Origin: Euborellia annulipes
Taxonomy: Eukaryota; Arthropoda; Insecta; Dermaptera; Anisolabididae
NCBI GenBank assembly: GCA_023213315.1
Contig: JAKCPI010011772.1
Span: forward strand, 1 to 64,000
Length of the DNA: 64,000 nt
Direction of reading: 5' to 3'
Shown here: positions 23,041 to 60,918 of the stretch, piece by piece
Numbering within the stretch: the stretch's first letter is position 1
Layout: every line of letters starts with the position of its first letter
The notes under the pieces: model-generated
What the model saw: the letters and a program-made list of their open reading frames with translations, nothing else
Databases searched by the model: none
Told to the model about the DNA's origin: nothing
Translations under genes and position numbers: made by a program

Positions 23041-23085
23041 GCAGATATTTCGGTAAGCCTAACGCAAACCATCCTCAGTGCTTCA
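23041..23085 (-). ncRNA. Hammerhead ribozyme motif (CTGAGGA core)
   Basis: The minus strand reads CTGAGGA (23078-23072), a helix II closed by TGGT and ACC, then GAAA (23051-23048) and TATC. All conserved hammerhead core positions CTGANGA and GAAA are present. Helix III is the self-complementary ATAT and the putative cleavage triplet is ATC. Helix I is short (GCA with TGC). A minimal type I form like those in Penelope-like elements. Confidence 0.55.
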
Positions 23086-23478
23086 AATTATATGATTGTG
23101 GAGCGTTTAATAAACTCATAAAATGCTTGAGAAGCCATTCTATATATGGAGGGGACAAAATCGTATGAAGCAAGTCACTGAGAGAAAAATAGCATCTATA
23201 TACATAAGACACAATCGAATTTTTGTATGCTTTAAGATAATTTCTCACAGTGACCCACCAGGCGCGTGTACTTTCTAATACAACTCGCATGCAAAAAATA
23301 AAAAAGGTCAACTGATTTGCACTTGAGGGAGAAAAAAAAATTTAGTCTCCCTAAAAAAAAAGAAAAGGTAAAATAATTTTCACGGGAGGGGAAAAAAATT
23401 CAAAAAAAAAAAAAAAGGACTAAGGTAGAGGCTAAAAATCTTGTTTCGGTCGGACCCTAATTATAATAACCCTATGAC

Positions 23479-23848
23479 CAGAGTTGGCAAGTTTTATCCC
23501 GCCGAGTATAATACACGGTTTTATACATGTATAAAACTATCGCGGATAAAACTAGGCCGATGTATAAAAAGTATAAAACTTTGTAAAAAACCAACCCCCC
23601 TGAAAAAACAGCTTAAAAGCTTTTCATATTTTATAATGTTTTAAAGCATTGACGATGTTGTTTGCTTTTTATTTAGTGAATAACATAATGAAAATGGTAA
23701 TAATTGAAAAATGAAATTTTATTTGAATTTCCTTTCTAGTCGGGTTTGCGCATGCGCATTCAAGTATTATACATTTTATACGTTTTATACAAGTTTTATC
23801 CGTGATTTCTGTATAAAACTGCAAAATCGTGTATAAAACCCAACTCTG
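23479..23848. mobile_element. hAT-type MITE, 370 bp
   Basis: Begins CAGAGTTGGCAAGTTTTAT and ends ATAAAACCCAACTCTG. The interior is rich in GTATAAAAC motifs in both orientations. Flanks CCTATGAC and CCTACTGA form an imperfect 8-bp target duplication. No coding sequence. Confidence 0.65.
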
Positions 23849-24195
23849 CCTACTGACCCAAGAAAAATCTATAAAAACCAAAAATTTAATTGGCTACCAA
23901 TAAATTGAAATAAATAGATATGGATTCTAAATTCCGAAAAATATCTTAAATAAATTTAAAAAAAAAAACCTCTTTGATTTTTGATTTGTTTTTCTTTCAC
24001 AATAATGTCATCTCACTTTCCTACTCTCTGATTTCAAAGAAGTTTTCATGGTTTTATAACATAACCTAATTCTAACCTCAAAATCGAATAAAATATAAAT
24101 AAGTTCAAAACATAGATATATGGTTCAAAAGGAAGGATTGTTCTATAATTTTTAATTAATTAAATGAATATTTGTGATTATATTTATTATTAAAA

Positions 24196-25636
24196 ATGTC
24201 ACTAATGAATTATAGTTATTTAAGAACATTAAAGGTATAAAAATTAGAATTTTTTTTTTAAATACTTATCATAATTTTGAATTTTATTTTTAGATATCTT
24301 ATAAAAATGTTCTTCCTCTGCTTCAAATCCCTCAAATAAATCTTGAAAGTGTAAGACATCGAACTCAGAAACATTGGAATCAAAAATATAGGAAATTAAG
24401 ATCTCAAAAAGTACTCAAAATTGACATCCCGGATTATTATCGACATTTAATTGGCAATAAAATAACACCAGAGGAAGAGAGGGCAAAAATGAAAGAAAGA
24501 GGACTTCAGCCACGCATGTAGATAACAATTTAATTTAAAATCTTTCTATTTAAGATTAAATATTCATCTAAGTACACTTTGTTATATTTTGCAGAATATT
24601 TAGTAATTCATAATTAACACTTAATGCGTATTGTTCATGCATGATGTTAAATCACTACCATATATATATATATTTGTATATTTAATTTTATTTTACAAAA
24701 TGTCCCAACGAGATCTGAGTTTGAATTTTTTTATTTGTTCTTTATAGGCCGTGGATTGAAAAACCTTTTTATTTAAGTTGTACTGGAGCTATTTTTGAGC
24801 CTTATGTGCCTCCCGAAGGAGATGGAAAAAAATCTGCTATTACTCTTCCGGTATTTATTATTATTTCACTAATTATCATTTTCTTTATATTTTAAATGTA
24901 TGAATTTTTTTAGGGTGCCAAACAAAAATATGAATTCTTAGAAAAAAAGAGTAAATCATATCTTGCAATTCGTAAAATAAAAACATTCGATGAGGATTTT
25001 AAAAATGAAGAATTTTTAGATCAAGCACAAGAAACTTATATTAAATCACATGAACTTTTAGCCGAGTATGTAATTTAACTTGTGGATTATTTATATATAA
25101 TATCATTTCTAATATATAAATGTAAAATAAACATTTAAGGATTCTTGCTGTGTAGAGATTATTTCTAATTGATTGAAGGATTCAGGATGTCATAGCGACT
25201 CTTGATGAAGGTGAGTGTATATGGGTGATTCTACGCTATTTGGATTTTTTGTGTCCAGAAACCAAATATACTCTGTTCAATTTAATATTCATGATTTCCT
25301 TAGTTGAATATACTTTTATAATGTTTTTTCATTAATTATGTTTTTGGGTTTATTTATGTTTATAATTATGGTAAAAAATATTATGTCAAGTTAATAAATA
25401 AATGAGAGTCGAACAAAACTAGTAAAAAAACTAGAAATGGGACACCCAGAATACTATACATTTATGACTATTTTCAACTAATAATTCCTAAAAATGAAAC
25501 AGTTATCGTGAATTAACTAAATGGCCCCAATAAAACACGATATTCTTTATTATTTAAGAATACAGTATCAATGATATAATTATTTTAACATATATTTTTT
25601 CCACTGACCAATAAAATTCAAATAGCGTAGAATCAT

Positions 25637-25682
<46 letters not shown>

Positions 25683-28600
25683 TAAAAAGTGTTTAATTTA
25701 TCAAGAGTCGCTGTGACATCCTGATTCCTTCAATCAATTAGAAGTAAAATAAGACTGTTCTTAAAGTCTAATATATCTAAAAAAAGTTAGATTTTACTTT
25801 ATAGTTTGGAGATTAAGTAGGCGTGAGTGTGATTATATATATAAAATAATTAAATTATCATCTGATTATGGATAAATAAAACCAGGTTAAGTTTCAAAAG
25901 GATTTTATTTTAGCTTACCAATGCCTCATCTTCATAGCTATGACGTATTAACGTCGAAATGCGCATAAGCTAAAATAAAATCCTTTGAAACTTAACCTTG
26001 TGTTAATTATGTAAGTGTAGACGAAGCAAACTTAACTGTATTTGAATCACAGCTTACTCAACTAAAACAAAATTCATTATGTATCAGATAGCCCACAAGT
26101 ATCTTTAATTTTAACAATTCCTTTATAAATATTAATTATAACATTTTATTTTCTAGTAATAATGATTATGACTCGATGAAAGATTCTCTAAGAGATTATG
26201 TCACCGAAAAAGCTTTACTAGTAAGTGAATTGATAAAATCTGAAAAAGTCATTTATTATTTTAATCTAAAATTTGTAATTTTTTTTTTAGGATATGATGA
26301 ATAACGTTTTTTATAAAACAATTCGTTGGAAATTTCTTAATTCATTAGAACCTCCTAGAATTGTTCATGCCAGATGTACAAGTCTTATAACAAAAGAAAA
26401 CGTTTATGCCCAAATCACTGTACGATTTCATAGTCAACAGGTAAATTTCATTATAGTCATCTTATTCTAATTCAACAAAATTTCGGCACCAAATTACACC
26501 ATTGAAATATCCTCTCTATTGTTTGGTAGGATTTTAGTTCTGCTCACTAACTAGGCTGGTTTCCATTCATATCTATGACAGTTATGGCCAGCGTTGGGCG
26601 AATTGTCTACTTTATTTCGTCTACGCAATTTTCTACGCGTAGACAATGTATGTAGACAAATGAACAATATCCATGTAGACAAAGTAGACAGTGTAGACAA
26701 TTAAAATTTAAAAATTTGGCGGGACTAACAACACCATAATTTTTTATATATCGTCATAAATATAATTTTTTGATACTAATATACACGACCTCAATAGGTA
26801 AAGAGTGATTTTACAATTTTTCTATTGCACTTTAAAGCGAGAATATTGGAGTAACGAACACTAAATAAATTGTATATATATATATAAAATTTAGTGTTCG
26901 TTACTCCAATATTCTCGCTTAAAGTGGAATATCAAATATAGCGAGATATTGGGTGAAAAAGAAACATCTGCCAGCGTTGATAATGGCGGTATTCTTAATT
27001 TTAAGTGACTTTTATTTGAATTAGATATTAGAAGCTGTATTATGCAGGGTTTTTTTGCAAAAAGACACACTGCAACATATTTTTCATTTTGTTTCCCTAA
27101 TTCAAATTTTAATTCATTAAAATGTCTGTTTATTGGTCTTCCGCGTTTAGACATTTTTATGTATATGAATTTCTAGGCTGTTTCTAGAAATGACAGATCT
27201 GAGCCTGATCTGACAAGGGGAGGGCACGACCTTGGCATTTCATTTTGGGATGAAACTTCGGGTGATGATTGTAGACCGTTAGGGGGTTCACCCCTTGAAA
27301 TAGTAACGCGCAACGCTCAATAGATACGGAGAAAATGACGTTTAAAAAATTCAAAGTTCGCTTATATACTAGTTAGGCTTTTTATATGACAATGGCGACA
27401 ATAGTCTAGCAGCAGCGGCGTAACCAGCCTTTGAGGGCGGGGGGGGGGGCGAAGCTCAACTAGGGCGCCGATTTTCCAGGGGCTCCGCCCCTGGACCCCT
27501 TGCTCGCCTTCGGCGAGCAATTGCCCGCCTTCGGCGGGCAAATTTCTTGCATCCTGTAATTTCTTCAGCGAATTTGTGAAACAAATGAATTTGTTTATAT
27601 TTACATGTTTTTTAATGACACCTGTATGATTTTGTTTTGATTTTTTATCAAAATTAACGAATATTTTCTTTTTTTTCTTTGATTATTTCAAAAACTATTC
27701 AGTTTTCGAAAAAATGTCAAAGAATAAAAACTTTTTAAAATAGTGTAATTTATCATAATATAACAAAAAAATTGAAAACTTCAAAATTTTGGAAAAAACT
27801 TTTTAAGTAAAGTACTACTTCCAAGTGACGTATTTACTCCAAAAGTTGATAAAAATCTACAATTTTAGTGTAAGGAGCATATACCAACTTTCATCGATCT
27901 AGCTGCTTTGGTTTTTAAGCAATCGTGTTCACACCCACACACAGACGTAATTCCAAAAGAACATACGAGAAAGTCTCGGGGAAGTCATTCCCCATTTTTT
28001 TTTTAACACACACTTTTTTCCCATTCACACTCACACTCACACACACATGCACACAGTCTTTTCGGCAACTTAGGCCATATAAGACTTTGACTTTGACATT
28101 TGGTATCCAAATGGCTTCAATAAAATCATCAGACTGCCTGATCCCAGGCCCGAACCCCCGATTAGAGCCCTGCACGGGTACGGGTTGGCCCGTAGGCCCG
28201 TTACCTACCCGGCCCGCGGACCGGGCCGGGCGGGCTTTGGAGGCCATGAAAAAATTACGGATGGGTACGGGCGGGTAGCAAGTCTAAATAAACGGGTTCG
28301 GGCGGACGGGCATGCAAATGAAATTTTATTTAAAAATTGCTAGGCATTCGTTCATTCATTCATTAAATCTCGGGCGGGAATGGGCGTGTTTGAAAAAATT
28401 CCGGGCGGGCTCGAGCCGGCCTGAAGAATGGTAAAAGCCCTTTCATTTTGAGAAAATCGAAAAAAACTGAAAAACTACATCAGTAAAATACTAGTACTTT
28501 TTGGCCGATTTTGATTAAAAGCTTATTTTCACGGTCCCGGGGGTGTTTAACTTAAATATAACATTTCAGTCTCATAGCTCAATTCCTTCATGCTTAAAAA

Positions 28601-30808
28601 AAGTTTTGAATTTCAACAAATTAAATATTAAGGCTTATACGAATCCTGAGTAATTCTCCACAGCCATAAAACATCAAATTAAGGCTTATATATTGCAAAA
28701 TAAAAAAAATTTTAATTATAAAGCCTCTATATACGTTATTTATTATTTTTGGAATTAAATTCATTTAAAATAGTAGAATTCAAGTTGTAATATAATTTTA
28801 AAAGAAAACAATCTATGAAAAGAATATGATAAAATCACATTCGCTGGGCTATATCTTAGAGGCCGTAGGGCGCCAATGCCGGTTTCGGGGGGCGCCAAGG
28901 GCTCGATGCGCTTGGGGCGGGGGCTCGAGCCCCCCCCTCGCCCCCCCCCCCCTGGTTACGCCACTGTCTAGCAGGTAGCGTGTCTACCCCCCAAACTGGC
29001 GCTTGGGGTTCGAATCTCGCCTCGACTTATTTTTTTTTTTTTTATTAAATTATTTATTTTATTGTTTTTATAATTAAATAAATTGATTATTTAATATTAT
29101 AGATTATTTATTAATAGAGAAATTTTTGTGAACGTAAATGATGTTTGTCTGTTTTCCAACTGATCTTTTAAAAAATAATTCATTGTTCTTGTAAAAATTA
29201 TTCCGCTTTAATTAATTGTGCTAGATGCCGAAAAAATTTTTGTTTCAAATGTTTTTATGATGATTATCATTCAGTCTCACGTTTGTAATAAAAAAGTATA
29301 ATGTATAAATGCTTATAATGTAAAATCAAGAAATAAGATTGAAACTTTTTACTTATTAATAGCCTAAATTATAGTATTTTGAATAATAGTTTATTAAATA
29401 ATAGTGTATTTATTTGGTAGTTATTTAAAATATTGCTATTGAATATAATTATGATTTAAAATTTAGTCTTTTTTTTGTTAGCAAAATAACACTATAGTTA
29501 TTTATTAATAAATAATCTTTAATATTAAATAATAAATTTATTTAATTGTAAAAACAATAAAATAAATATTTTAATTAAAAAAAAAAACAAGTCGTGCACG
29601 GGATTCGAACCCCAAGCGCCCATTTGATAGGTAGACACGCTACCTGCTAGACTATTGTCGCCATTGTCATATAAAAAGCCTAACTAGTATATAAGCGAAC
29701 TTTGAATTTTTTAAACGTCATTTTCTCCGTATCTATTGAGCGTTGCGCGTTACTATTTCAAGGGGTGAACCCCCTAACGGTATACAATCATCACCCGAAG
29801 TTTCATCCCAAAATGAAATGCCAAGGTCGTGCCCTCCCCTTGTGAGATGAGAGCGAATGAAAACAAGCGCTGAGCCATTTGTCTACATTGTTTACATTGT
29901 CTACTTTGTCTACGCATTTGTCTACGTCATGAAGTAGACAAATCAAAATATGCTTAATTTGCCCAACACGGGTTATGGCAGATTAAATTAATTAAATTCA
30001 GACTTTTTATCTTATGTGAAGATATTACGATCCATATAGAAGTTTATTATCTATTCTTAAGCATCTATCGCTTACTAAGAATCAACATGTATTATTCAAT
30101 TTAATTAATTTATCATCTAATTATAGATAAATAAAAAACGAGGTTAAGTTTCAAAAGGATTTTATTTTAGCTTGATGCGCATTTAGATGTTAGTTTGACG
30201 TTAAACGTATTAACGTCGAAATGCGCTTAAGCTAAAATAAAATCTTTTTGATCATCTAATTATAGATAAATTACGAGGTTAAGTTTCAAAAGGATTTTAT
30301 TTTAGCTTATGCGCATTTCGACGTTAATTTGACGTCAAACGTCAAACTAACGTCGAAATGCGCATAAGTTAAAATAAAATCTTTTTGAAACTTAACCTCG
30401 GGTTTTTTATTTATCTATATAAATTTATTTATTTATTTAGATGATAATTTAATTAAATTTAAGAGTGTTTCAACTAGTTCCAACGGTGAATTCTAGGGAT
30501 TATATGTATTATTCAATTTCAGACTCTTGCAATTTATGATCGCTTTGGACGCCTTATGTATGGAAGTGAAATTCTAGCCAAGGATGTTTTAGAATATGTC
30601 GTTTTTGAAAGACATTTAGCAAATGTCTATGGTAAATGGAGATTACATGATAAAATAATTAATGATCAAACGTTAAAAAAATCAAGAGCCAGCAAATGTA
30701 ACATATATTGAAAAACCCGAAGAGGAAGAACAAAATACTGTTAAGGCCGAAAAAGAGAAAGAAGAAAAACAAAATCCAGAAGGAGAGAAATTAGCGGTTG
30801 TAACGTAG
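24196..30808 (+). CDS. MRPL45: Mitochondrial ribosomal protein L45 (mL45)
   Basis: A component of the large mitoribosome subunit; the family carries a TIM44-like domain near the exit tunnel and binds the inner membrane. Seven exons with GT/AG borders and matching phases: 24196-24234, 24294-24517, 24748-24850, 24914-25065, 26157-26220, 26291-26440, 30523-30808. Diagnostic stretches are [54 protein letters not shown] and [16 protein letters not shown], all matching animal MRPL45. Exon 1 encodes a short basic start ([13 protein letters not shown]), plausible as part of a mitochondrial targeting peptide. As written, exon 7 hits TGA at 30709-30711. Reading the A7 run at 30675-30681 as A6 continues into an acidic tail (EKPEEEEQ and onward) ending at TAG 30806-30808, for 338 aa. 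The animal family commonly has an acidic tail here, so I favour a one-base error or lesion. The 4-kb last intron is filled by transposons. Confidence 0.93.
25884..26001. repeat. Palindrome of the ATGCGCAT hammerhead-like family, copy 1 (MRPL45 intron 4)
   Basis: Arms AGGTTAAGTTTCAAAAGGAT and ATCCTTTGAAACTTAACCTT enclose GACGTATTAACGTCGAAATG and CGCATAAGCTAAAATAAAA. The + strand keeps helix II (GACGT/ACGTC), GAAA and the self-complementary ATGCGCAT, but the CTGANGA part has decayed to CTATGA. It lies in an intron. Confidence 0.6.
26838..26922. repeat. Perfect short palindrome
   Basis: AGCGAGAATATTGGAGTAAC on the left and GTTACTCCAATATTCTCGCT on the right, with a (TA)n loop. It lies inside the large hAT element. 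Confidence 0.7.
27415..28966. mobile_element. Nested hAT element, 1.55 kb
   Basis: Ends CAGCGGCGTAACCAG and CTGGTTACGCCACTG (one mismatch), with an exact 8-bp target duplication TCTAGCAG (27407-27414, 28967-28974). The insertion splits the left tRNA-like unit of the host foldback. The inverted partner at about 29640 is intact, so the empty site can be read directly. It contains a tail-bearing SINE on the minus strand and a CGGGCGGG-rich fragment (28167-28430). No transposase. Confidence 0.85.
27930..28160 (-). repeat. tRNA-derived SINE, 5'-truncated
   Basis: The minus strand carries GGTTCGGGCCTGGGATC (box-B-like), then CCGATGATTTTATT-type sequence, AAGCCATTTGGATACCAAAT, GGCCTAAGTTGCCGAAAAGA and a GTGTGAGTGTGAATG tail. 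Same family as at 31759, 57139 and 58609. It lies inside the nested hAT element. Confidence 0.6.
29580..29655 (-). repeat. tRNA-like unit (SINE head) with A and B boxes
   Basis: The minus strand reads TAGTCTAGCAGGTAGCGTG (box-A-like), then GGGGTTCGAATCCC (box B), then a poly-T run. The ends do not pair as an acceptor stem, so it is SINE-like rather than a tRNA gene. The inverted partner at 27390-29030 is interrupted by the nested hAT. Confidence 0.5.
30143..30400. repeat. Two palindromes of the ATGCGCAT family (copies 2 and 3, MRPL45 last intron)
   Basis: Copy 2 spans about 30143-30250 and copy 3 about 30276-30400, each with AGGTTAAGTTTCAAAAGGAT arms and GACGTT/AACGTC cores next to CGAAATGCGC. 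The CTGANGA part is lost in both. They lie ~120 bp upstream of the last MRPL45 exon. Confidence 0.6.
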
Positions 30809-32219: not shown

Positions 32220-33420
32220 AATTTATATTTATATGCTGATTCGGACGAGATAATTATTTTTAAGTTGACTATGCAGCTTCTTTCGTCTATGACTTAAGTT
32301 ATAAAGAACTGACGAACATGATTTTATATCGAAACTGATCTTTGTACAAGGCAGTTGACCATCAATAATATTAACTTAAAAATAAAAACTGTGTTTTTAT
32401 TGATTTTTCTACCAAACATCAGTCATAGACGAAAGAAGATGCATAGTCAACTTTAAATAATTTATAAATACATTCCTATTTCAAATTCCCACCCCCTCTA
32501 AAAAACAAGAATTACCATTATTCGTGTATATATGGTTAGATCCGTGATGCCAGGGCCTAGGGCGGAAAAATTTTAGAGGCGAGAAAATTTTAGACCTAAA
32601 TTTAAAGAAATATTAAAATTTTAAAATCAATTTGGCTTAGTTACAGTGACAGCGCGTGGGAAGGGAGGGGGCGGCAAATAAATTTTGCCCCTCGTAACAA
32701 ATTTCCTAGTTCCCTGTATATAGGTAAGAGAAAGTAAAAAAAATAGCGGTCCGGAAGATTGTTCTAATCTCGGGAGGATTAGCGCCTAGTTCCACTAATC
32801 ATAAGTTTTCCTACATTGGGATGACAAACCAATGTAAACAAACCATTTAGAGGAATCACTGACTTCTTCTACTGTCCAGCGACCATAATATCAAGATAAA
32901 AGTGACATCGCTGAGACAATTCTATGTTCCAATGATTGTAGGAATATCGTAAGAGACTGATCAATAAAGCGGCAATCGCGGCACAGAAGAATGCGAGCTG
33001 GGTTAGAAGTTAATGAACATCAACATAGGCTCTGGAGATGCAACCAAGTTTCCTACCAGTGGATTTGATGACTTAAGCAATTTGGTCATTCAAGGAAGAT
33101 TATATCGTAGGCTGAGCAGTGAGGGGTTGGAGCAGTTTATACCTCCGCCTGACATCTTTTATTTAGCAGTTATTTCGATGCACATGGCATGCATCATCTT
33201 CAATGCCATAAGGATATAAAAGGTGGGCTTAGTCAAATGGTTTCAAACGGCTTAGGGGCGTTATACATGTTTATATACGCCTTGAGAATATTTCATTATT
33301 AGATAGATGAAGCAATGTGTAAATTAAGGAGACGCGGAACAATTTCGATATATATTAGCTAAACCAAAAAGAAAGTTTGAATACAATAGAATAAAAACAA
33401 TGTATATATTTTAAATTTTA
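32220..33420. other. No supported gene
   Basis: Contains an inverted repeat around 32230-32460 (TTAAGTTGACTATGCAGCTTC against GATGCATAGTCAACTTTAA) and GC-richer stretches near 32560-32700 resembling transposon ends. A 68-codon open stretch on the + strand at 33013-33219 has an ATG but no recognisable domain or splice context. Confidence 0.35.
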
Positions 33421-33531: not shown

Positions 33532-33931
33532 GTGTCGAGATATATTTAGTTTCCACCGATATATTAGAATTCAGGAGGTAAAATTTATAAACATGGGAAA
33601 ATATTTATATTTTGTTACCATGGCAACCATTTCTTTTATCTTTCCTATGAAGTAGAAGAGTAAAGTGTGCTTCAAACAATTTTGATAGCAAAATGAGAAT
33701 ATACATTTGAAAGAGCATCTAAAAAATAATTGATTTTTGAACTTTAATCAAAATCGTTAGAGCGAATTTTGTGAAAATCGAAAAAAAAAACTCCGATCAT
33801 CAGTTTTTCAAATTGCATCTGTCCCGGAGTTGTCAGTGACTAAACTAGTTTATGAGCAACTCGCCCATAAATAGAATACATAATAAATGTATTGTGCCAA
33901 TTTGACAACTCTGGGACAGATCAAATTTGAA

Positions 33932-33973
33932 AGACTGATGATGGGAGAATAAAGTTTTCCCGAAACGTCTCTG
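33932..33973 (+). ncRNA. Hammerhead ribozyme motif (CTGATGA core)
   Basis: CTGATGA (33935-33941), helix II TGGGA...TTCCC, GAAA (33962-33965), then CGTC. All core bases fit the hammerhead consensus. The cleavage triplet would be GTC. Helix III is the self-complementary ACGT, and helix I begins AGA/TCT. A decayed inverted partner, containing the complement of CTGATGATCGGAG, lies at about 33795-33810, with inverted flanks GACAGAT / ATCTGTC. Confidence 0.65.
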
Positions 33974-34242
33974 TAATTGTAGTAAAATCGGATCTTTGAT
34001 TTTTGGTTGCTCCTGCTCCCTTCCTTGTGTGTAAATCAACATCCACGTACTTCATCGGTAATACTTTCTCTCTCTATATATTAACATATATAGAGGTTTA
34101 GAGAAAGTAAAAAGGAAAGAATAAGAACTTCCCTTGATAACGAGCCTAATGGTTTCTTTGACTTTAAAATTATTGTTGTGAAGTCAAAAATGGAGAGAGA
34201 GAGGTACAAAATTTGAAAACTAAACTAAAATTCGTTGTTTAT

Positions 34243-34297
34243 AGCTCCGAGGATGGCTTTGACCTGGCTTTGACCAAAGCCGAAACGTCAGCTGTTA
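34243..34297 (+). ncRNA. Hammerhead-like motif (CCGAGGA core)
   Basis: ATAGCT, then CCGAGGA (34247-34253), helix II GGCTTT...AAAGCC with a duplicated TGGCTTTGACC loop, GAAA (34282-34285), CGTC, then AGCTGTT pairing back as helix I. Same family as 52397-52442 and 52668-52712. Position 4 of the core is C instead of U. Confidence 0.5.
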
Positions 34298-41700: not shown

Positions 41701-43678
41701 GTACCATTAAATAAACGAACTGAAGAAAATTTTAGAGCTGCTTTTGAAGAAAAGGGTCTTGCTGATATCGTTAAATTACATAAGGCTCAAGTAAGAAAAT
41801 TTTTTATTTTTTTTTAATTAAAGGTATCCTGATTAATTTCCTTTTTTCGTTTCTGAAATATCAAATTTCTTTTTCCCAAAGACCGGCCTTTAAAAAAACT
41901 TGTTTGACAAAAATCTTTTGTCTTATAAAAGAAAGTTATGAGCAAAAAATATATCCTATTATACTAAGAAAAAAATTTTTAAATTAGTCTGGTTTAATTT
42001 ATAAAAACATCACATTGTCAAAGAATTTTTATAGTGTAATTCCGATCCAAAACAATTGATAGATCTAAAAAATGTTATATTTACATTTTTATTTTGATAT
42101 TTAGAACAATTATTATAGAATTATATTCATGATTTAAATTATTTTTTTAGGCGAGCCAAGAAGCTAAACGAGATTTACAGACTCAACTGGAAGAAAATCT
42201 TTCTGAAGGTCGATCTACTAAAGATTTAATCACCGAAGTTCGGGAAATGGCACAAAAGAATCTTATTCCGGAACATGAAGTCGTCCCATTGGTCAGTATA
42301 TAAAATACATAATAGCATTATTTAAAATCCATCTAAAGTTTCCAAAGGACTAGCTTAAAGGATTAATTTTATAAAACATTTCTATAAGTTCAAATTAACG
42401 CTTCTAAAAATAACATGGAGTAAAAAGTTTTTTTTTTAAATACGAGCGATGCCCAATTTAATTTTTAAAAAAGCATTGTTGGGAAATAATTGTTTTAAAT
42501 TTATTAAATTATCTATTCTTGCTCACTGTTTAGATATTTTCAAATTTCCCTTTGGTAGCGTACAAGTATTACGTAATGCAATTTGGGGGAGGGGGGTCTC
42601 GTAAAACGTTACCATGCGTTACAAGGGGGAGGTTGAACAACGCGTTACGTAACTGGTATTTTAACGACTTTCCGATATTTTGCGCAACATAGTTGTGACT
42701 TTTAGATAAAAATGGCCACTTGAGCGTTATGTAACTTCGTACGCTCCCTTTCTGACTTAAATTTTAAATTTCCCTCTCCCGCTCTACTTCCTGTGACTAG
42801 CCAATCAGCGCCCCGATAGGCACATACACATAGGGACAGGAAGTCAGCCACTAGCGCTTTATATTATAGTATGGTGATGATGATGATGATAAATCGCACA
42901 AGGTTAAGTTTCAAAATAATTTTATTTTAGTTTATGCGCATTTCGACGTTAATACGTCATCTTCGGAGCAAACTTGAGTTTGTGTAATAGCTTTCAAGAT
43001 GACATATTAACGTCGAAATGCGCATAAACTAAAATAAAATCCTTTTGAAACTTAACCTTGTGTTATTTATCTATCTATAATTAGATGATAAATAAATTTA
43101 AGAATGTTTCAACTAGTGCCAATTACAATTATATTAATTGTTTTAAACTTCTAGCTGTGGTCAACTGTCATGTCTCAAGTTGAATGGAACAAAAAAGAAG
43201 AATTGGTTGCTGAACAAGCGCTCAAACATCTCAAGCAGTACACCCCATTATTCGAAGCATTTACAACTACAGCTCGTTCGGAACTTGCCCTAATGCTCAA
43301 AATTCAAGAATATTGCTACGGGAACATGAATTTCATGAAAGTTTTCCACAAGATTATTCTTCTCTTTTATAAAAGTAATTATTTCAAAATTCATATCAAC
43401 GTTTTTATTAATTTATAAAATATTAATATATCTTGATCTTTTTTTAGCTGATGTCATTTCAGAAGAAGTTATTTTAAAATGGTATAAAGAAGGACATTCA
43501 GTTAAAGGTAAAATGATGTTTTTGGATCAAATGAAAAAATTTATTGAGTGGCTGCAAAACGCAGAAGAAGGTAAAACATTGAATCATCTAGTGATTTATA
43601 TATATATCTATAGATTGTTTCTAATATTTTTCTTTTTTTTTTTTTTTAGAATCTGAATCTGGGGAGGAAGAAGATTAA
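35719..43678 (+). CDS. BZW1: eIF5-mimic protein / basic leucine zipper and W2 domain protein (BZW1/2 family)
   Basis: A cytosolic translation regulator whose C-terminal W2 (HEAT) domain binds eIF2/eIF3 in competition with eIF5. Ten coding exons with consistent phases: 35719-35779, 39155-39331, 40519-40622, 40697-40879, 41490-41611, 41688-41790, 42151-42291, 43155-43374, 43448-43570, 43650-43678. Their total is 1263 nt, or 420 aa, the usual length for the family. The N-terminus reads [20 protein letters not shown]. Further hallmarks are [40 protein letters not shown] and a C-terminal acidic ESESGEEED after the W2 segment ([28 protein letters not shown]). No lesion is seen. Most insects have a single gene of this family (krasavietz in flies), so the BZW1/BZW2 distinction is not meaningful here. 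Introns hold a foldback, a LINE fragment and an ATGCGCAT palindrome. Confidence 0.95.
36720..37400. repeat. Large foldback in BZW intron 1
   Basis: The left arm (36780-37030) carries AGACTGAAAATCCCAAAATT and AGCGACCATATTTTGGATA. The right arm (37140-37270) carries AATTTTGGGATTTTCAGTCT and AAAAATATGGTCGCTTTAT. An inner stem pairs TAGCCTCAAAATGCCAG with CTGGCATTTTGAGGCTA. The outer right segment (37255-37400), with CTCCGAAAAAAAGTGGCAAA, reappears inverted at 45333-45475, downstream of the gene. Confidence 0.65.
38166..38360 (-). mobile_element. LINE fragment (C-terminal part of an RTE-like ORF)
   Basis: The minus strand reads [20 protein letters not shown] then YNKMRWIKD, matching the segment after the reverse transcriptase core of RTE/craft-like LINEs (the family pattern is YG-x-ETW-x-x-x-K). 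It is 5'-truncated and lies in BZW intron 1. Confidence 0.55.
38410..39000. repeat. ~200-bp tandem repeat, three copies
   Basis: The marker TTCTCCAATTCCA occurs at 38431, 38630 and 38838 (spacing 199 and 208). Each unit also has GATCAGCAAAGAT and TCAACTCTCT. It adjoins the LINE fragment at 38166-38360 and may be a multiplied piece of the same LINE. Confidence 0.6.
40100..40290. repeat. Short repeat with ATAACGAG motifs
   Basis: CTCATAACGAGTAATTCGCA, TTGCTTAACGAGCGAGG and TCTTATAACGAGTGACG repeat the AACGAG word. The right part has GAATTATGCTCGTTAAGTG in opposite sense. It resembles a Tigger/pogo-type MITE, but ends were not resolved. In BZW intron 2. Confidence 0.4.
42557..42745. mobile_element. 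Short TIR element in BZW intron 7
   Basis: AGCGTACAAGTATTACGTAA on the left and TTATGTAACTTCGTACGCT on the right form imperfect inverted ends. Flanks CCCTTTGGT and CCCTTTCTG suggest an imperfect target duplication. Non-coding, 189 bp. Confidence 0.6.
42901..43060. ncRNA. Palindrome with hammerhead-like motif and ATGCGCAT helix III (BZW intron 7)
   Basis: The minus strand at 42966-42930 reads CCGAAGA, TGACGT, ATTA, ACGTC, GAAA, TGCGCAT, AAACT. Helix II is GACGT/ACGTC. Helix III is the 8-base self-complementary ATGCGCAT. Helix I pairs AGTTT with AAACT. The plus strand at 42992-43025 holds a second, more decayed copy (TTCAAGA for the core). The outer arms (AGGTTAAGTTTCAAAAT...) define the palindrome. 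Core position 4 is C instead of U. Confidence 0.5.
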
Positions 43679-43679: not shown

Positions 43680-44640
43680 AAATTCTAAAGGTAAACATAA
43701 TTTTAATAGATCTTTGTCATATTTGTTCTCCCACTAGAAGAGATTTAGTTTGAATTTACTAACCGTTTAGAAATCTGTATAATTCTTTTTATTTATTTAC
43801 ACATTAATTATTTTCTTAAATTTACATCTTCAATAAGCTAACAACTCGTTTATTCTCATGTGTTCGTGACCATTTTGTAATTCTTTTAACATTATAAGAT
43901 TTTACTCTTTTCTTTTTAAGAAATTCAAATAAAATCTGATTTGATGATAAATTAAATTGACAGATGAAGTTAGGGAACAGCCTGGTGAACAATATGATAG
44001 AGAAGGTTTCAATAATCAAACTAGGAGATGATAATCAGGCAAATTTATTTAGAGAAACTCCTGTTTCGAAGCACAAACGGCTTCTTCTTCACGACTTTAT
44101 AATTCATTATCAACATTGTTAAATATTATGACGAAATTGACGGGAAGGTGAGAAGGGTTTGATTATTGATACCGCATGGTGAGTTTACCATGAACCCATC
44201 TCTTTATGAATTACAAGTGGCAAAGCCCACCTTCGGCGGACTTTCTCGCTTGCCAGTGGACTGCGCCCCCTGGATCTCCTTGCTCGGCGAGCAAATTTAT
44301 TCTTGCTCTCTGTTTGGAAATTTTTCAATTGCTCGCCTTCGGTTTTAAATTTCCCTCCCTGACTCCACTTCCTCTCACTCTAATCAATCAGCGAGAGACA
44401 GTAAACAGGAACATAAAACGAAAGTCAGTTTTATATTATAAAAATATGATGATATATGACAGGGGAGGCCAAACTGCGGCTCGTGAACCACATGCGGCTC
44501 TCATAAATGTTACTGAGAGAGTAATACCATTCACCAAAGAAGTAGTGTTTAATTTTTAATATTTAAATTTAATACACGTATTGAAAAATGGCTCAGATTA
44601 TCAAGGAGCTTGACCACCCCTGATATATGATATGATAATT
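43680..44640. other. 3' flank of the BZW gene; no gene seen
   Basis: AT-rich with GC-richer repeat fragments at 44200-44400. A degenerate hammerhead relative (complement of GTGAAGAAGAAGCCG...GAAACAGG) lies near 44060-44100. Open stretches at 44166-44559 lie in these fragments and lack gene features. Confidence 0.35.
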
Positions 44641-44684
44641 GTATCATATAATGTTATTCATAATTTACTTTTAATTTCATGGTC

Positions 44685-44720
44685 CTGAAGAACAAGCCGT
44701 TTTTACTTTGAAATGTTGAC
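44685..44720 (+). ncRNA. Decayed hammerhead motif
   Basis: CTGAAGA (44685-44691) followed by ACAAGCCGTTTTTACTTT, GAAA (44710-44713) and TGTTG. It has the same flanks (CATGGTC before the core) as the motif at 60783, but helix II no longer pairs well. Confidence 0.3.
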
Positions 44721-44865
44721 TAGTAGCGTGAGGAGTTTCCCTACATAAAATGGTCTAGTTTACATTATTATTGACAACCTTCTCTATCAAATTAATTAAA
44801 GAATACAGTGGAGAATTGGAGGTATCAGCCAAATTGGGATTGTCCAGGTTAATAAAACTCCCAGG

Positions 44866-44910
44866 ATAAGACGTTTCGGCCTGAATTTATTTGGCCATCT
44901 TCAGTTATCG
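44866..44910 (-). ncRNA. Hammerhead ribozyme motif, best-formed copy
   Basis: The minus strand reads CCCGATAA, CTGAAGA (44904-44898), TGGCC...GGCC, GAAA (44877-44874), CGTC, TTATCCTGGG. Helix I pairs GATAA with TTATC, and CCC with GGG beyond a two-base bulge. Helix II is GGCC/GGCC around an AAATAAATTCA loop. The cleavage triplet is GTC and helix III is ACGT. All conserved core bases are present. Confidence 0.75.
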
Positions 44911-45027
44911 GGAATTATACACATGGTGCAAGTGCACATGTGATCAAACCAGGACTCGTCAATAATAAAATATATTTGCTTCATACAAAATTCTATGGTT
45001 CCTGTGCCCAAGCTCAGAGATAAACCC

Positions 45028-45072
45028 GAAAACTGAAGATGGCCAAATAAATTCAGGCCGAAACGTCCTTAT
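45028..45072 (+). ncRNA. Hammerhead ribozyme motif (opposed partner)
   Basis: CTGAAGA (45033-45039), TGGCC, AAATAAATTCA, GGCC, GAAA (45060-45063), CGTC, then CTTATCCTGGG. It is identical in core and helix II to the partner. Helix I is weakened by A for T on the 5' side and an extra C on the 3' side. Confidence 0.7.
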
Positions 45073-45332
45073 CCTGGGAGTTTTATTAACCTGGACAATC
45101 CCAATTTGGCTGATACCTCCAATTCTCCACTGTAATCACATCACAGCCACAATCTCAAAATCAATAAATTAATTAAAGAATGCCAAAGAGCTCTGTTCAA
45201 TTTGAGAAAATGGCATAAATTTATGTGATTTTTAAAGAAAACATTGAAATGCAGGCCCCGACATATGTAGCTCAGTACAGTTTCAGTGATTGTGAGAATA
45301 GAAACACGACCATAGCATAGTTCTGCACTAAG

Positions 45333-48510: not shown

Positions 48511-49154
48511 CAATTCTTGAATCAAGATTATCGATTCTCTGTTACTCTATATTTCCATTCTCGAAATACAGAATATGTTTTCTAGTATATTACTATCATA
48601 AGTGGATGAAAGAATTCATTTAACAGTTTGATCGTTAAGATAGATCTCTACACTCCCACGAACATTGCTAACACTGTTCTCGAACAATGTTAGGCAAACA
48701 TTTAGGATCTACTAACAATGCTAGCTAACAAAAATGAATGTTCCACTCGAAGGGGGTAAAGATCAAAGAAATAGAATTTAATTGATATTGCTTTGTGAGG
48801 ACATTAGTAATAGTAATTTGTTCTCGTTTTTTATTTGAAAATGGAATGGTTTTTCAGTGCTTTTTTAAAGCGTTTGTAATTTTTATTCTTCCTTTAGTTA
48901 ATTCATATTTTACTTGTTATTTTTCTATTATAACAAGAATATATATTATTCTGAAAAGACCAACAATGTGATTGATTATCCCTCCTGATACCAGGGAACA
49001 TAGGAATCGACATCTTTCAAACAAACAATATTTAATTATGGCTTCAAAGTATACAAAATAGTTAATGTGAAAATGGCTGTATAGAATTGAATACCAGGAA
49101 TGAAGAGGAATGCAGCCAGATAGAGAACCTCTATTAAATCAAACTCCTTTGATG

Positions 49155-49197
49155 CAAAACATTTCGACCAATTTTATTGTGTCATCTTCAGATAGGT
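49155..49197 (-). ncRNA. Hammerhead-like motif
   Basis: The minus strand reads CTGAAGA (49191-49185), TGAC...GTC, GAAA (49165-49162), then TGTT. The CTGANGA and GAAA elements are intact and helix II (TGAC with GTCG) can form. The cleavage-site side has changed from ACGT to ATGT, so activity is doubtful. Confidence 0.4.
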
Positions 49198-52284: not shown

Positions 52285-52321
<37 letters not shown>

Positions 52322-52396
52322 TTTCATAGTATAAGGGTATTTTATGGCTGGTGGAATTTGTATCAGGAATGAAAGTTAGAAGAAAAAATATATTTT

Positions 52397-52442
52397 AACA
52401 GCTGACGTTTCGGCTTTGGTCAAAGCCATCCTCGGAGCTGTT
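52397..52442 (-). ncRNA. Hammerhead-like motif (CCGAGGA core), left arm
   Basis: The minus strand reads CAGCT, CCGAGGA (52435-52429), T, GGCTTT, GACC, AAAGCC, GAAA (52411-52408), CGTC, AGCTGTT. Helices I (AACAGCT/AGCTGTT) and II (6 bp, GACC loop) are perfect. The only consensus departure is C at core position 4. Confidence 0.6.
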
Positions 52443-52667
52443 ATTGCTCATTATGTACATATATTTTGATTTGTATTTGGTATTAATTTAGGATATAACA
52501 AATCAGGATCAGGAAAAAAGTCTATATATATATATATACTGTATATATATTGTATTGGTGATAGAAGGAGGAAAAAGTTTTTCTCGAATTGAAGACTTTT
52601 TTTTCCTGATGTTATATCCTAAATTAATACCAATACAATTCAAAATATATGTACATAATGAGCAATA

Positions 52668-52712
52668 ACAGCACCGAGGATGGCTTTTACCAAAGCCGAA
52701 ACGTCAGCTGTT
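52668..52712 (+). ncRNA. Hammerhead-like motif (CCGAGGA core), right arm
   Basis: AACAGCA, CCGAGGA (52674-52680), TGGCTTTTACCAAAGCC, GAAA (52698-52701), CGTC, AGCTGTT. It has the same C-for-U change as the left arm. The helix II loop differs by one base. Confidence 0.55.
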
Positions 52713-53045
52713 AAAATATATATTTTTAAAGAAAAGATTTTGGCTGCGTTTTCTTTAAGGATAACAAAAAAGCTCTATTATCTGGCGGTGGGACATATTC
52801 GAATTTCTATATAAAATTGTTACAATTTTATTTTATTTTATTTATTTATTTATTTTTTTTTTTTGATCTAAAAAAAATTGAAATTTTGAGTTATGACACT
52901 CTTGAAAATGAGCGATATATATATATATATACTTACTCTATATACCTATATTTGGATACCTACATGGAATTTTTCATTATTTTGATTATCCTTTCTATTT
53001 TCCTTTCAAGATTAAGGACTATCGATTATTTCAATATATTAATTA

Positions 53046-55367: not shown

Positions 55368-55404
<37 letters not shown>

Positions 55405-55536: not shown

Positions 55537-55600
55537 AATCTCTTAAGAACTGATGATGGATTTATTTAATTAAAACCGAAACGTCTTCTGAATTGAGATT
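55537..55600 (+). ncRNA. Hammerhead ribozyme motif (CTGATGA core) with long helix I
   Basis: AATCTCTTAAGAA, CTGATGA (55550-55556), TGG...ACC with TTT/AAA pairing, GAAA (55578-55581), CGTC, TTCTGAATTGAGATT. Helix I extends over both AAGAA/TTCT and AATCTC/GAGATT blocks. Core consensus is complete; cleavage triplet GTC; helix III ACGT. Confidence 0.7.
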
Positions 55601-55760: not shown

Positions 55761-55815
55761 CAATAACTGAAGATGGCCAAATAAATTCAGACCGTTTTAT
55801 TCTGGGAGTTTTATT
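55761..55815 (+). ncRNA. Decayed hammerhead motif
   Basis: CTGAAGA (55768-55774), TGGCCAAATAAATTCAG and then ACCGTTTTATTCTGGGAG. It is the same family as the palindrome at 44806, with the GAAAC segment deleted. Confidence 0.4.
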
Positions 55816-55894: not shown

Positions 55895-56105
55895 AAAGAA
55901 TTTGATTTTTTCGGTTTAACTGTGGTTTATTTGTAAAAATTACAACGTTTCGGCACACATTCTGTGGCCTTCTTCAATTCTTCTACAATTCAGCTAAGAT
56001 TATAACACAGATGTAACAACCTTTATAATCTTATCTGAATTTACCTGAAGAAGGCCACAAAATGAGTGGCCGAAACGTTGTAATTTTTGCCCCAAATATA
56101 TTAAA
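55895..56105. repeat. Palindrome with opposed hammerhead motifs
   Basis: AAAAATTACAACGTTTCGGC on the left and GCCGAAACGTTGTAATTTT on the right flank a ~100-bp spacer that is itself partly inverted (CTAAGATTATAA / TTATAATCTTA). The left-arm motif (minus, about 55977-55940) has TTGAAGA in place of CTGAAGA. Confidence 0.75.
56040..56086 (+). ncRNA. Hammerhead ribozyme motif (CTGAAGA core)
   Basis: TTAC, CTGAAGA (56045-56051), A, GGCCAC, AAAATGA, GTGGCC, GAAA (56072-56075), CGTT, GTAA. Helix II is a perfect 6 bp, helix I is TTAC/GTAA, helix III is ACGT, and the cleavage triplet would be GTT. The core is complete. Confidence 0.7.
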
Positions 56106-57625: not shown

Positions 57626-58192
57626 TTTTTGGAACATATTTGTTGAATTTGGGGACTCTTTAGATTGCGGAACCTTTAAGAATGTTGCACGGAACAGCAG
57701 GCTTCCTGGTTGGAAATAGCTGGTCTATTCACTGTGGACAAGTATAGAGTAAATTTTGACCTTGAAATTTGAATACAAAATTGTTGATTACTTAGCAACT
57801 AAAATTTCCGTTTTGAGAAAATGCAGCAGTTTATTTATTTTATTTCTTTTATAATAATGCCAGTCAATCGTTAAAATGGAAAAAATAACATATTTTCTTA
57901 TACTGGAATTACTCCAAAAATATAGGCTTGATATGATGTCTATTTTAATTTCTTATCAATAAAAATTCATTTTTCTTTTAATGAAATTATTTCTTAATTA
58001 ACAAGTAATATATAGGATATTTTTCTAAATAGAACATTCGATTAATTTGTTGCTTATCATTCATTGACTTGATGGCCCCTGCGTTGACATTGACCCGCGT
58101 TTCTCGTCATTCCGAATGAAACCTCTTGAGCTAAGCAAATAGTTGCATTGCGTTGAGCGGTGATCCACTCAGTACTAGTTGAACATTCAACC

Positions 58193-58416
58193 ATGCCTGA
58201 GGTATCACGCAGCATTTCTGAAGATGGTTCAGGTGGTCGTCGGCTCCGTTTCAGCGGACTTTCTGATCAACCATCACCATCTTCACAACCGGATGTATCC
58301 AACACTCTGACTACGTCCTCAAATCTAACTCGAAATTACGCTAGTGAAAATGAATTGGCTATGTTTGCTGAAGCCAATTCTGATCATTTCTCTGATGAAC
58401 GTGAATTATCTCATAG
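58193..58416 (+). CDS. First coding exon of an unrecognised gene (continues beyond the window)
   Basis: An ATG in good context (CAACCATGC), with an in-frame TGA about 40 bases upstream, opens 75 codons: MPEVSRSISEDGSGGRRLRF, GLSDQPSPSSQPDV, then NELAMFAEANSDHFSDEREL and SHR. They end at AG|GTAATT in phase 2. GC content is clearly higher than the flanks. The Ser/Asp-rich, hydrophilic segment looks like the cytosolic N-terminus of a larger protein. No domain is recognised. No second exon is evident in the next 5.5 kb, so the first intron is long. Confidence 0.7.
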
Positions 58417-58608
58417 GTAATTTAATATTAAATAAATATTTTTTTGTTCAATTTCCGCTAAATGGGGAAATTAATGTCCCAAAAAAAAAATTTACTTTCG
58501 TTCGGAACTTTTATAATAAATTAAATTTTGGTGAAGTCAATTATGTTGCATACTTCTTTTACGCGGAAATTGGATGTCTTTTTACAACAATACATCAGTC
58601 CTCCGATT

Positions 58609-58804
58609 CACACAGTCTTTCCGGCAGCTTAGGCCATTTAAGACTTTTACGATATCCGTTATAGAGATTAAAATACATATTAGGGGTCTAGGCATTCTTT
58701 TAGATACCAAATGGCTTAAATAAATCATCCTACCTGGGGTCCGAACCCGCGACTTTTGGTATACGAGGTTAGCACGCTAACCTCTACACCAAACCCCGAG
58801 GGCC
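58609..58804 (-). repeat. tRNA-derived SINE
   Basis: The minus strand begins GGCCCTCGGGGTTTGGTGTA and has GGTTAGCGTGCTAACCTC, box B GCGGGTTCGGACCCC, GATTTATTTAAGCCATTTGG and GGCCTAAGCTGCCGGAAAGA. Full head and body, in the long intron of the gene starting at 58193. Confidence 0.7.
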
Positions 58805-58829
58805 GTCCTCCGATTAATAGCACTAAACA

Positions 58830-60040
58830 AGACACAAAGGGTACAAAATTTTTTTTTCTATAATTAGAATTTAATTAAAAAAAAAAAAAAAAGTTTTCGA
58901 ATGAGAAAAAAATGTGTTTTTTTTTATAAAAAAAAAAAATTTCTTAATTGTTGTCGTATACCGTCAAGGTCTTTGTTTCATTTTTGAGGAACTTGTTCTT
59001 CTAGATCCCTTCAGATGGCACCATTCCTTTTAAAGTTTATATTTATAAAATTTATAAATTTATCACAAAGATTTTTCCTCCTACTTTTGAGAAATTTTTA
59101 CCTAAAACAACATAATTAATTGGTACTACAGTCTTTGCCGCTATCATTATCCGCTCAGATCCTCAGACAATAAAATCCTTTTTAGATAACACTTCCTACA
59201 TTTGAGCCTTTTGGTTGTCTAAACTCAAGGCGCAAGTCCTTCCCCTGGCGGTTAATATGAGCGCCTCATGCCTCATGCTATTTCCGTATATATGAGATGG
59301 ATTAATTAATCTTTGTCAATTTTTCACAAATATTTTATATTAATTCACCTAACATTTCACTTGCTCTTTTCCAATTCTTACTAATTCCACTAATTACAGG
59401 AATCTAGTATTTTGCGAAGGTGTCTTTTTTTAAATTTCTCAGGGGCAAATTGGCAATTATCTTCTGCCATTAAATATAATTCTAATTTACAATTTCAATA
59501 ACTAGATTACGAAATCAAAATTTCAGATTATATTATCTTGTTTTTTTAAATTCTTTCATAATAATATTGCGAAATTGAATATTTAATTTTAGAAAATTAA
59601 AAAAAATTTATATAATGCGCTGGAGATTTAGAGCTTCATTTATAAGTCTATTATTTTGCTATTTTATTGAGTAAGAAAAATATGCAAGTTTAGGCCTTCT
59701 GGACGCTATACTCCCCCTCTGCAGGACCCCTCCCTGATCCATTTGTTTAGTCTTATATGTGGGTTTATTATATGATAAAGAAAGTTTCTTTTGTTATAAT
59801 AAATTTATTAATATTTAATAGTCAATTAGGTAAAACATAAATTTTCAATTAAATTCAACTTTCTCTTCTGTTATTAACATATTTACTTTATTTTATGAAT
59901 TGTTTCAAAATTTATTATTTTATTTTTTTCAAAGCCTACCGCTTTTTCTTTCTAATAAATAATGTTTTGAGATTCTGTCCTTGAGCTTGGGTAGGTGGCC
60001 ATATTATAAATAAAATAGGGCGAATCCTTTCAATTCTTGT
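58830..60040. other. No gene seen (probable intron)
   Basis: AT-rich DNA with long homopolymers; no splice-bordered open segment of note. Confidence 0.35.
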
Positions 60041-60439
60041 AAATCTATCAGTGAACAAAATATCTCAAGAACCTAGGAAGTTGAAATTTTATAATGGCAC
60101 TGACACGAAGCTTTTGAACAAAATCGGCCAAAGAGTACTAATATTTTATTGATTTTTCAGTTTTTTTCGATTTTCTCAAAATTCGCTCCAACGATTTTGA
60201 TTAAAAATTCAAAAATCACTTATTTGCTCTTTAAGGTGCGCGTCTCGGGGTGGTAATTTTGGGAGATTTCAGCGGCCACAATTTTGAAGCTATCGACCAA
60301 AATTTTTTTTAAATTAAAGCTATTTAAAATATCTACAACTTATAGAAGCCCTTTTTTTGATTTTCGAAAAAATAAATTAAATATTCCGTATTAATTAAAT
60401 GTACCGTACTGTCGAAAATTAATCATATGTCGACACAAA

Positions 60440-60522
60440 AATCTGGTGTGACAAGCACAGAACACAACCTTCGATTACCGAAGATAAGAAAGTGTGCTGT
60501 GCGAACAGCTACACCAGATTTT
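60440..60522. repeat. Hairpin element with AAATCTGGTGTGAC ends, copy 2
   Basis: AAATCTGGTGTGACAAGCAC on the left and TACACCAGATTT on the right, with CACAACCTTCGATTACCGAAG in the middle. The interior is reversed relative to the copy at 33445. Confidence 0.6.
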
Positions 60523-60612
60523 TTTCAAATTTGTTTTAGGATCTTTAGACTTCATTCATATTTATTTCAAAAACATTGATAGCCAATTTAATTGAAATAT
60601 TGAAAAAGATGA

Positions 60613-60918
60613 AGATAAATAAAATCTAGAGACGATTTTCAGGCCAATTTATTTGGATTCAACGTTAACGTTTCTGAGTCCAAACGATTCTTTGTCGGGC
60701 CTCATTACCCTTGTGTATATGTGCACTAGCGATATAATTTCAATTTCTTAAGGGCATATTTGATTCTTAAGCCCGCATGGTCCTGAAGAAGAAGTCGTTT
60801 GGACTCCGAAACGTTGAGCAGCAACGTCACAGAGCAAAACGTCACAGCAGGAGGAGATAATCCAAATAAATTGGCCTGAAAATCGTCTCTAGATTTTATT
60901 TATCTTCATCCTTTTCAA
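60613..60918. repeat. Palindrome with opposed hammerhead-type motifs
   Basis: Arms AAATAAAATCTAGAGACGAT and ATCGTCTCTAGATTTTATTT, then CAGGCCAATTTATTTGGATT and AATCCAAATAAATTGGCCTG. The right arm carries the motif at 60775-60825. The left-arm motif is degenerate: GAAACGTT is present, the CTGANGA part lost. Confidence 0.75.
60775..60825 (+). ncRNA. Hammerhead ribozyme motif (CTGAAGA core)
   Basis: CTGAAGA (60783-60789), helix II GAAGTC / GACTCC around GTTTG with one mismatch, GAAA (60808-60811), CGTT. Core consensus is complete, helix III ACGT. Helix I pairing is weak in this copy. Confidence 0.55.

Follow-up and report, generated by a model that had tools for sequence, protein, structure and literature searches.

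What are the dozen hammerhead-like motifs that lie in the first 64,000 nucleotides of contig JAKCPI010011772.1 of Euborellia annulipes (assembly GCA_023213315.1; this whole stretch is hereafter called the window), and how did they come to be there? The original prediction, made from the DNA letters alone, had described them as minimal hammerhead ribozymes scattered through introns and intergenic DNA, and had named Penelope-like elements (PLEs) and retrozymes as the elements that such motifs mark. Our analyses point instead to a paired arrangement. We consider it probable that the window hammerheads are mostly the outward-facing ends of short non-autonomous insertions, likely made by PLEs of the same genome, with priming of reverse transcription at each of the two sides of a staggered DNA cut.

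The window contains 17 matches to a loose pattern (CTGANGA, 4-30 nt, GAAA), where 4.67 would be expected; none of 100 shuffled sequences reached that number. When helices I and II of at least 3 bp and GAAA-N(0-8)-T-H were demanded, seven matches were found, compared with a mean of 0.12 and a maximum of 1 in 60 dinucleotide shuffles. In six of the seven, CYGANGA is separated from helix II by a single unpaired base and GAAA from T by exactly two, a combination found in none of the shuffles. The remaining match, at 20595, lacks this form and lies inside the coding sequence of a long interspersed nuclear element (LINE). The form common to the supported sites consists of one unpaired A or T after CYGANGA, helix II and GAAA, usually with a palindromic ACGT or ATAT step, and helix I pairs in most of them. 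The helix II of the original prediction does pair, but it is in register only when one base after CYGANGA, omitted at the time, stays unpaired. A CTGAAGA...GAAA match at 41720 is merely coding sequence of a host gene.

A covariance model, R1, was trained on 26 copies from the rest of the genome and none from the window, and was run with filters off; its expectation (E) values are rough, as calibration was short. R1 recovered 10 of the 12 originally listed sites at E <= 1.1e-5, whereas 49155 scored weakly and 42930 gained no support. It also gave matches outside that list, two below 1e-3 and two at 0.015. The Rfam hammerhead families, in contrast with R1, which was built for this variant, stayed at background, with zero matches in the window even at E <= 10. 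As a control for Rfam we used 14 shorter phage loci from the viral contigs L006-L085, picked by the canonical core (CTGATGAGTCC..GGACGAAAC) alone. One of the 14 reached the Rfam gathering score, as did none of five phage loci with an extra T, four of which were also blank at E <= 5. Because this control showed Rfam to be insensitive, its silence on the window was given no weight. Phage contigs among the viral ones (L001-L005 and L006-L085) commonly contain hammerhead cores. The five loci just mentioned had been retrieved with N at the extra-base position; all carry T, two of them are near-identical, and by eye their other helices are present. Thus, the extra base is also found in complete hammerheads. 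In a viroid hammerhead, likewise with complete helices, an extra nucleotide reportedly follows A9. A viroid hammerhead that resembles the present copies in having an extra core nucleotide is on record, according to a reference title (De la Pena and Flores 2001, in PMC3705267).

The candidate hammerheads and elements of the window are as follows (E, R1 E-value; no strand is given for pairs and direct repeats).

44789..45181: Element A, a head-to-head hammerhead pair with a short left arm and a long right arm
44789-44804 and 45166-45181: direct repeat of Element A, 16 bp, AAATTAATTAAAGAAT, read as a target duplication
44864-44910, minus strand: minimal hammerhead of the Element A left arm (site 44904), E 3.9e-11, predicted cut beside 44870
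45033-45067, plus strand: minimal hammerhead of the Element A right arm, E 4.4e-7, helix I broken
45108..45148, plus strand: tail hairpin of Element A, GGCTG at 45108-45112 and CAGCC at 45144-45148
52383..52726: Element B, a head-to-head pair with the hammerhead type of genomic regions L145 and L150 (see below), arms 96% complementary
52398-52441, minus strand: minimal hammerhead, left in Element B (site 52435), E 2.3e-10, predicted cut beside 52404
52668-52711, plus strand: minimal hammerhead of the Element B right arm (site 52674), E 1e-7, one substitution from 52435, in helix II/loop
55935..56088: Element C, a decayed head-to-head pair with an inverted match
55944-55976, minus strand: decayed left hammerhead of Element C, E 0.015, outside the original list
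56039-56085, plus strand: right hammerhead of Element C (site 56045), E 1.3e-9, predicted cut beside 56079
55544-55591, plus strand: minimal hammerhead (site 55550), E 9e-10
55761-55802, plus strand: decayed copy of the Element A type, in direct orientation after 55550, E 0.015, outside the original list
60588..60963: Element D, inverted arms 60598-60659 and 60859-60920 (98%), right arm long
60588-60599 and 60952-60963: direct repeat of Element D, 12 bp
60777-60821, plus strand: hammerhead remnant of Element D, E 1.1e-5, helix I imperfect
60667-60674, minus strand: its hammerhead partner, GAAACGTT, CTGANGA box lost
44014..44723: a further, older pair in head-to-head arrangement that belongs to the Element D family, made up of an inverted match at 44014-44095 (minus) and the remnant 44679-44723 (plus)
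44679-44723, plus strand: hammerhead remnant of the older pair, E 6.3e-4, outside the original list
33929-33975, plus strand: minimal hammerhead with GGTTG tail (site 33935), E 4.7e-10, only a 23-nt inverted match nearby
34241-34295, plus strand: minimal hammerhead of Element B type (site 34247), E 2e-9, 11-nt duplication in helix II/loop
23038-23084, minus strand: minimal hammerhead with the second palindrome, GAAATATC (site 23078), E 8e-9, upstream of a LINE copy
49152-49197, minus strand: decayed copy (site 49155/49191), E 0.035, weak, GAAATGTT, no helix I, GGCTG...CAGCC kept in the tail
42933-42972, minus strand: site 42930, unsupported, E 0.25, in an arm of an unrelated palindromic repeat
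33163-33209, minus strand: decayed or chance match, E 1.1e-4, TTGAAGA in place of CTGANGA, outside the original list

Six of the 10 well-supported window sites belong to head-to-head pairs; no full partner was found within 2 kb of 33935, 34247, 49191, 55550 or 23078. The window copies represent at least seven helix II types. Among the matches listed, the types of 44904/45033 and 55550 recur exactly in the rest of the genome, and those of 33935, 49191 and 56045 recur with few changes. AATAAA is present in loop II of 33935, 44904, 45033, 49191 and many listed genome copies, and in several families it sits in loop II or between the hammerhead and the tail hairpin; it is possible that it serves as a polyadenylation signal or a loop contact.

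We searched the species' own genome assembly (903 Mb, 25,949 contigs, the window contig being C8374) with patterns that demand CTGA and a GG/CC start of helix II, so that the counts cover these forms. CTGANGAWGG(6-20)CCGAAANNTH was found 53,069 times against 5 in a backward-read control, and the form with ACGTC fixed 31,308 times against 0. G or C as the extra base accounted for 306 copies (control 0), and the matching form without an extra base for 59 (control 0), several of which, on inspection by eye, resemble members of the usual families that have changed locally. Thus, the extra A or T is close to fixed among the counted copies. It is not simply a start codon, that is, an ATG formed from A9 and an extra T: several window copies reach TAA at codon 4, many genome copies carry A rather than T, and in region L136 the frame of the open reading frame (ORF) opens downstream of the hammerhead.

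Covariation was assessed on 50 genome loci plus the window, with no pairing demanded (70 cores, 62 with distinct helix ends). Pairs 1-4 of helix I are paired in 89, 92, 81 and 68% of cores, against 42-51% after shuffling. In helix II, pair 3 is formed in 87% of cores (37% after shuffling) and pair 4 in 82% (46%); none of 2000 shuffles matched the values of either helix. For pairs 1-2 of helix II, pairing is partly a consequence of the search pattern used to retrieve 30 of the loci. Helix I pair 5 was matched by one of 2000 shuffles, and pair 6 gave no signal in the 62 cores (425 of 2000). A 26-sequence alignment chosen for pairing is 90.4% paired, compared with 58.5% when shuffled; its covariation score of 0.846 drops to 0.220 on shuffling and to 0.09-0.21 in slid registers. 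Helices I and II thus covary. The NN step of GAAA-NN-T is CG in 47 of the 62 cores, TA in six and neither in nine; together with the flanking A and T, both CG and TA are palindromic. Helix III of such a monomer has one A-U pair at most, and two copies could share a 4-bp helix. With their core, covarying helices I and II, reduced helix III and self-complementary step, these motifs are, by sequence and predicted structure, minimal type I hammerheads, and we infer that they may act as dimers through the shared 4-bp helix, which agrees with what has been published on PLE hammerheads (PMC7761336).

The link to PLEs comes from coding regions elsewhere in the genome. A search for GIY-YIG domains returned at least 118 matches (150 of 710 candidates scored), and a first scan detected a hammerhead motif in 18 of the 20 regions fetched around such matches; region L142 has none, and L146 has one only at its edge. 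L142 (G000:C21118) encodes a 609-residue GIY-YIG ORF that by eye resembles bacterial UvrC, and its contig is possibly that of a symbiont or contaminant. We scanned six ORFs with profiles, all from regions picked by their GIY-YIG match. RVT_1 and GIY-YIG were both found in those of L136, L139, L145 and L143 (RVT_1 just under cut-off in L143), and RVT_1 only in those of L138 and L137 (under cut-off in L137). Helix sequences differ between the PLE families. The hammerhead of site 52435 adjoins GIY-YIG ORFs in L145 and L150, with a reverse transcriptase (RT) identified by profile only for L145, and one-base variants of it adjoin GIY-YIG ORFs in L147, L152 and L153. In L139, two ORFs of 822 residues stand head to head with four hammerheads, two per orientation. 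The genome thus has hammerheads built in the same way next to RT/GIY-YIG ORFs, and the window motifs are therefore, as judged from sequence, minimal hammerheads of PLEs, a class of motif already known. These neighbouring ORFs, the covarying helices and the number of helix II types bear out the earlier proposal that the genome hosts several distinct Penelope-type ribozyme subfamilies. Also as originally noted, no Penelope-type ORF was seen by eye among window ORFs of at least 75 residues (profiles were run on three, all of one LINE). As RT/GIY-YIG ORFs lie beside hammerheads of the genome and none inside the window elements, we file the latter as non-autonomous derivatives.

The arrangement of the copies was examined in two non-random sets. 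Around 100 listed places, the first in contig order, 17 neighbours lie no more than 700 bp away, and every one of them faces outward; when the distance is widened to 2 kb, 19 face outward, two inward and one in the same direction. Flanks of 1.5 kb were fetched for 30 first-listed places, and for 22 of these a head-to-head partner with tails outward was present. Five of these pairs were counted from both sides, leaving 17 of 25 independent elements head-to-head. Each element end consists of a hammerhead and about 60-85 nt of shared tail. Twenty-one head-to-head elements (17 from this sample, four from the window) were then compared with mismatched flank pairs: direct repeats of 10-16 bp are present at the ends of 12 of the 21, against 5 of 408 mismatched pairs. 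This flank-swap control replaced an earlier test against random window positions, which was weakly significant because of AT repeats. In the searched flanks, no clear target duplication was detected for Element B, and none was found for Element C.

The two arms of an element differ in length. In all 12 elements with a repeat, the repeat lies 20-33 nt past the shared arm on one side and at most 8 nt from the arm on the other. By eye, the extra piece holds CAGCC in nine of the 12, and the shared arm has GGCTG some 20-45 nt ahead of this CAGCC, so that the two would close a hairpin. In the window, the short left arm of Element A is without the 3' half of this hairpin, the left arm of Element B keeps CAGCC and misses GGCTG, and Element D is without CAGCC. 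Genome-wide counts were 10,198 for GAAACGTC..GGCTG..CAGCC (control 60), 1,016 for GGCTG..CAGTC (control 40), 466 for GACTG..CAGCC (control 5) and 228 for GACTG..CAGTC (control 5); were the two sides independent, about 46 would be expected for the last. As in PLEs, the arms correspond to a pseudo-long terminal repeat (pLTR) with a hammerhead and an optional tail of ~30 nt on one of the inverted copies.

These features suggest the following model. A PLE enzyme acting in trans would cut both strands of an AT-rich target, and complementary DNA (cDNA) would begin on each free end, templated from the tail of an element RNA. One RT start would lie inside the hairpin loop and the other past the hairpin, one per target strand, so that the two arm ends would mark the two start sites. 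The two cDNAs would join through their 5' parts, producing outward tails and a target duplication. The hammerhead would cleave, probably as a dimer via the palindromic ACGU (or AUAU) step, which we propose because helix III is missing.

Several observations weigh against this interpretation. For seven of the 30 sampled sites the fetched flank contains no partner, an eighth matches only tail-to-tail, 1.3 kb off, and L160, which has a head-to-head partner, also has a short tail-to-tail match; moreover, the sample is made of the first listed places and is not random. Nine of the 21 elements, B and C included, have no repeat of at least 10 bp, and two of the 12 repeats (L164, L166) are of low complexity. 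The covariation count for the hairpin is driven by few families, with some places counted twice. GGCTG is found at +20 to +90 in only 36 of 68 tails and the full pair in 19; short arms are expected to be without the second hairpin half, and some tails have neither half. One hairpin region was folded and proved no better than shuffled sequence (z +1.05). By eye, some families have other stems: GACTG/CAGTC (L138, L141), AGCTG/CAGCT (L166) and TTGAAAC/GTTTCAA (L137). The cores of L137, L138 and L140, outside the 62-core count, have several bases between GAAA and T. Lastly, mutants of the Anolis Poseidon element PAc whose hammerhead does not cleave still insert in vitro (PMC11167929), so that insertion there does not require the cleavage.

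We also entertain, as a long shot, the idea that the conserved job of the PLE hammerhead is template pairing. Two RNAs would kiss through ACGU/AUAU, and the ribonucleoprotein would thereby give one template to each side of the staggered cut, one RNA starting in the hairpin loop and the other past it. If true, this would account at one stroke for the absence of helix III, the occurrence of two palindromes, the outward orientation of the pairs and the presence of one short and one long arm; the ribozyme would then act like the dimerisation signal of retroviruses, and its cleavage would be of secondary importance.

Priming from both sides of the cut has to be weighed against other origins of the pairs. 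The same elements might arise by snap-back, the strand priming itself at its 5' end and being copied back, as has been proposed for rotifer Penelope on an antisense template. The authors of PMC3846280 propose such self-priming since inverted junctions of Adineta vaga Penelope hold palindromes, and Element B has a palindromic centre. Nevertheless, a copied-back arm should have an equal tail, whereas the tails differ in every element with a direct repeat; unequal tails argue for two separate RT starts, and we regard snap-back as unlikely. In other respects A. vaga Penelope resembles the elements described here: it has inverted pLTRs, an optional 31-bp tail on one of them and target-site duplications of 8-10 bp, head-to-head is the commonest inverted arrangement observed, and foreign DNA is captured between solo pLTRs (PMC3846280). 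It differs in its low copy number.

Their short length, inverted ends, high copy number and flanking direct repeats would also suit DNA transposons of the miniature inverted-repeat (MITE) type, with stems in the terminal repeats that look like hammerheads by chance. Equal ends and duplications of fixed length would then be expected, whereas the arms are unequal in 12 of 12 elements and the repeats vary in length; in addition, hammerheads of the same build adjoin RT/GIY-YIG ORFs (no transposase search was made). We find a MITE origin very improbable.

Metazoan retrozymes are tandem repeats of ~300 bp that carry type I hammerheads and propagate as small circular RNAs; as an explanation they are a slightly poorer candidate still, and hard to credit. 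Like the copies studied here, metazoan non-LTR retrozymes are non-autonomous and non-coding with type I hammerheads (PMC7229834), and animal genomes harbour retrozymes alongside PLEs (PMC7229834, PMC7761336). One run at G000:C5140:26561-26819 has three hammerhead copies in direct tandem, 113 bp apart, an arrangement absent from the 30 sampled sites. None of those sites has a tandem partner in its fetched flank, so that the tandem repeats of 150-450 bp expected of retrozymes were not seen, and the retrozyme alternative of the original prediction is unsupported in this sample. Retrozymes of PMC7229834 are tandem with canonical loops, in contrast with the outward pairs here, most of which have no helix III.

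Chance or low-complexity matches to a short core, which the silence of Rfam and the AT-richness of the window might suggest, have a negligible probability given the excess over the reversed control, E-values down to 3.9e-11 from window-free training and the covarying helices, and are refuted already for 10 of the 12 sites.

Priming from both sides of a staggered cut by a PLE enzyme, the reading that we favour, also has parallels in better-known PLEs. Minimal hammerheads of PLEs have a type I core without helix III, lie in pLTRs, are dispersed by thousands and are said to cleave as dimers (PMC6155905, PMC7761336). As cited there, those of Cervera and De la Pena (2014) and Lunse et al. (2017) share with ours the core, the missing helix III and the pLTR setting; for the present copies, a near-fixed unpaired A/T after A9, a palindromic ACGT/ATAT step and frequent outward pairing are documented as well. 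In Anolis PAc, the ORF begins at stem II and the start codon is followed by the cut at a distance of 26 bp; the tail is defined by two sites in an AC-rich stem loop at which RT starts, and both target strands are cut (PMC11167929). The likeness extends to the hammerhead at the ORF start: at site 52435 of Element B an ATG is formed with A9, and the predicted cut lies 26 nt from its A. PAc is autonomous, whereas the copies sampled here are mostly short, with no ORF seen in the fetched flanks (no systematic search).

Three features appear new: that the sampled dispersed copies of this genome usually reside in outward-paired mini-elements with unequal arms, that the extra A/T is close to fixed in the counted copies, and that the hairpin recurs as a common landmark. 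Outward-paired hammerhead mini-elements were not found in the literature searched; Cervera 2014 and Lunse 2017 fell outside its coverage, and so we do not claim that they are unpublished. If they arise as we propose, dispersed ribozymes gain a testable origin, the integration of Penelope leaves its mark on the scale of the whole genome (each insertion with two unequal starts, and one hairpin), and tens of thousands of natural copies become available to probe the function of the ribozyme.

The window harbours other repeats and one host gene. Exons of krasavietz/BZW lie at about 39-43.6 kb (plus strand); the protein that they encode shares 90-92% identity with proteins of cockroach, termite and katydid as well as with one unnamed protein. 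A near-perfect, MITE-like palindromic repeat family is present at 42888-43071, 30100-30483 and 25848-26013; one arm holds site 42930, and a sub-threshold Rfam match to mir-7131 falls within this family at 42931-43026. Another long near-perfect hairpin, at 26828-26926, is matched below gathering scores by several unrelated microRNA families. A broken LINE at about 19802-22964 (minus strand) has Exo_endo_phos and RVT_1 matches, with the hammerhead at 23038-23084 upstream of it, and its 5' part recurs at 18049-18184 (plus strand). Finally, 28966-29652 is an inverted pair with, by eye, a tRNA-like B box, GGGTTCGAATC, and perhaps represents a tRNA-derived repeat in two orientations.

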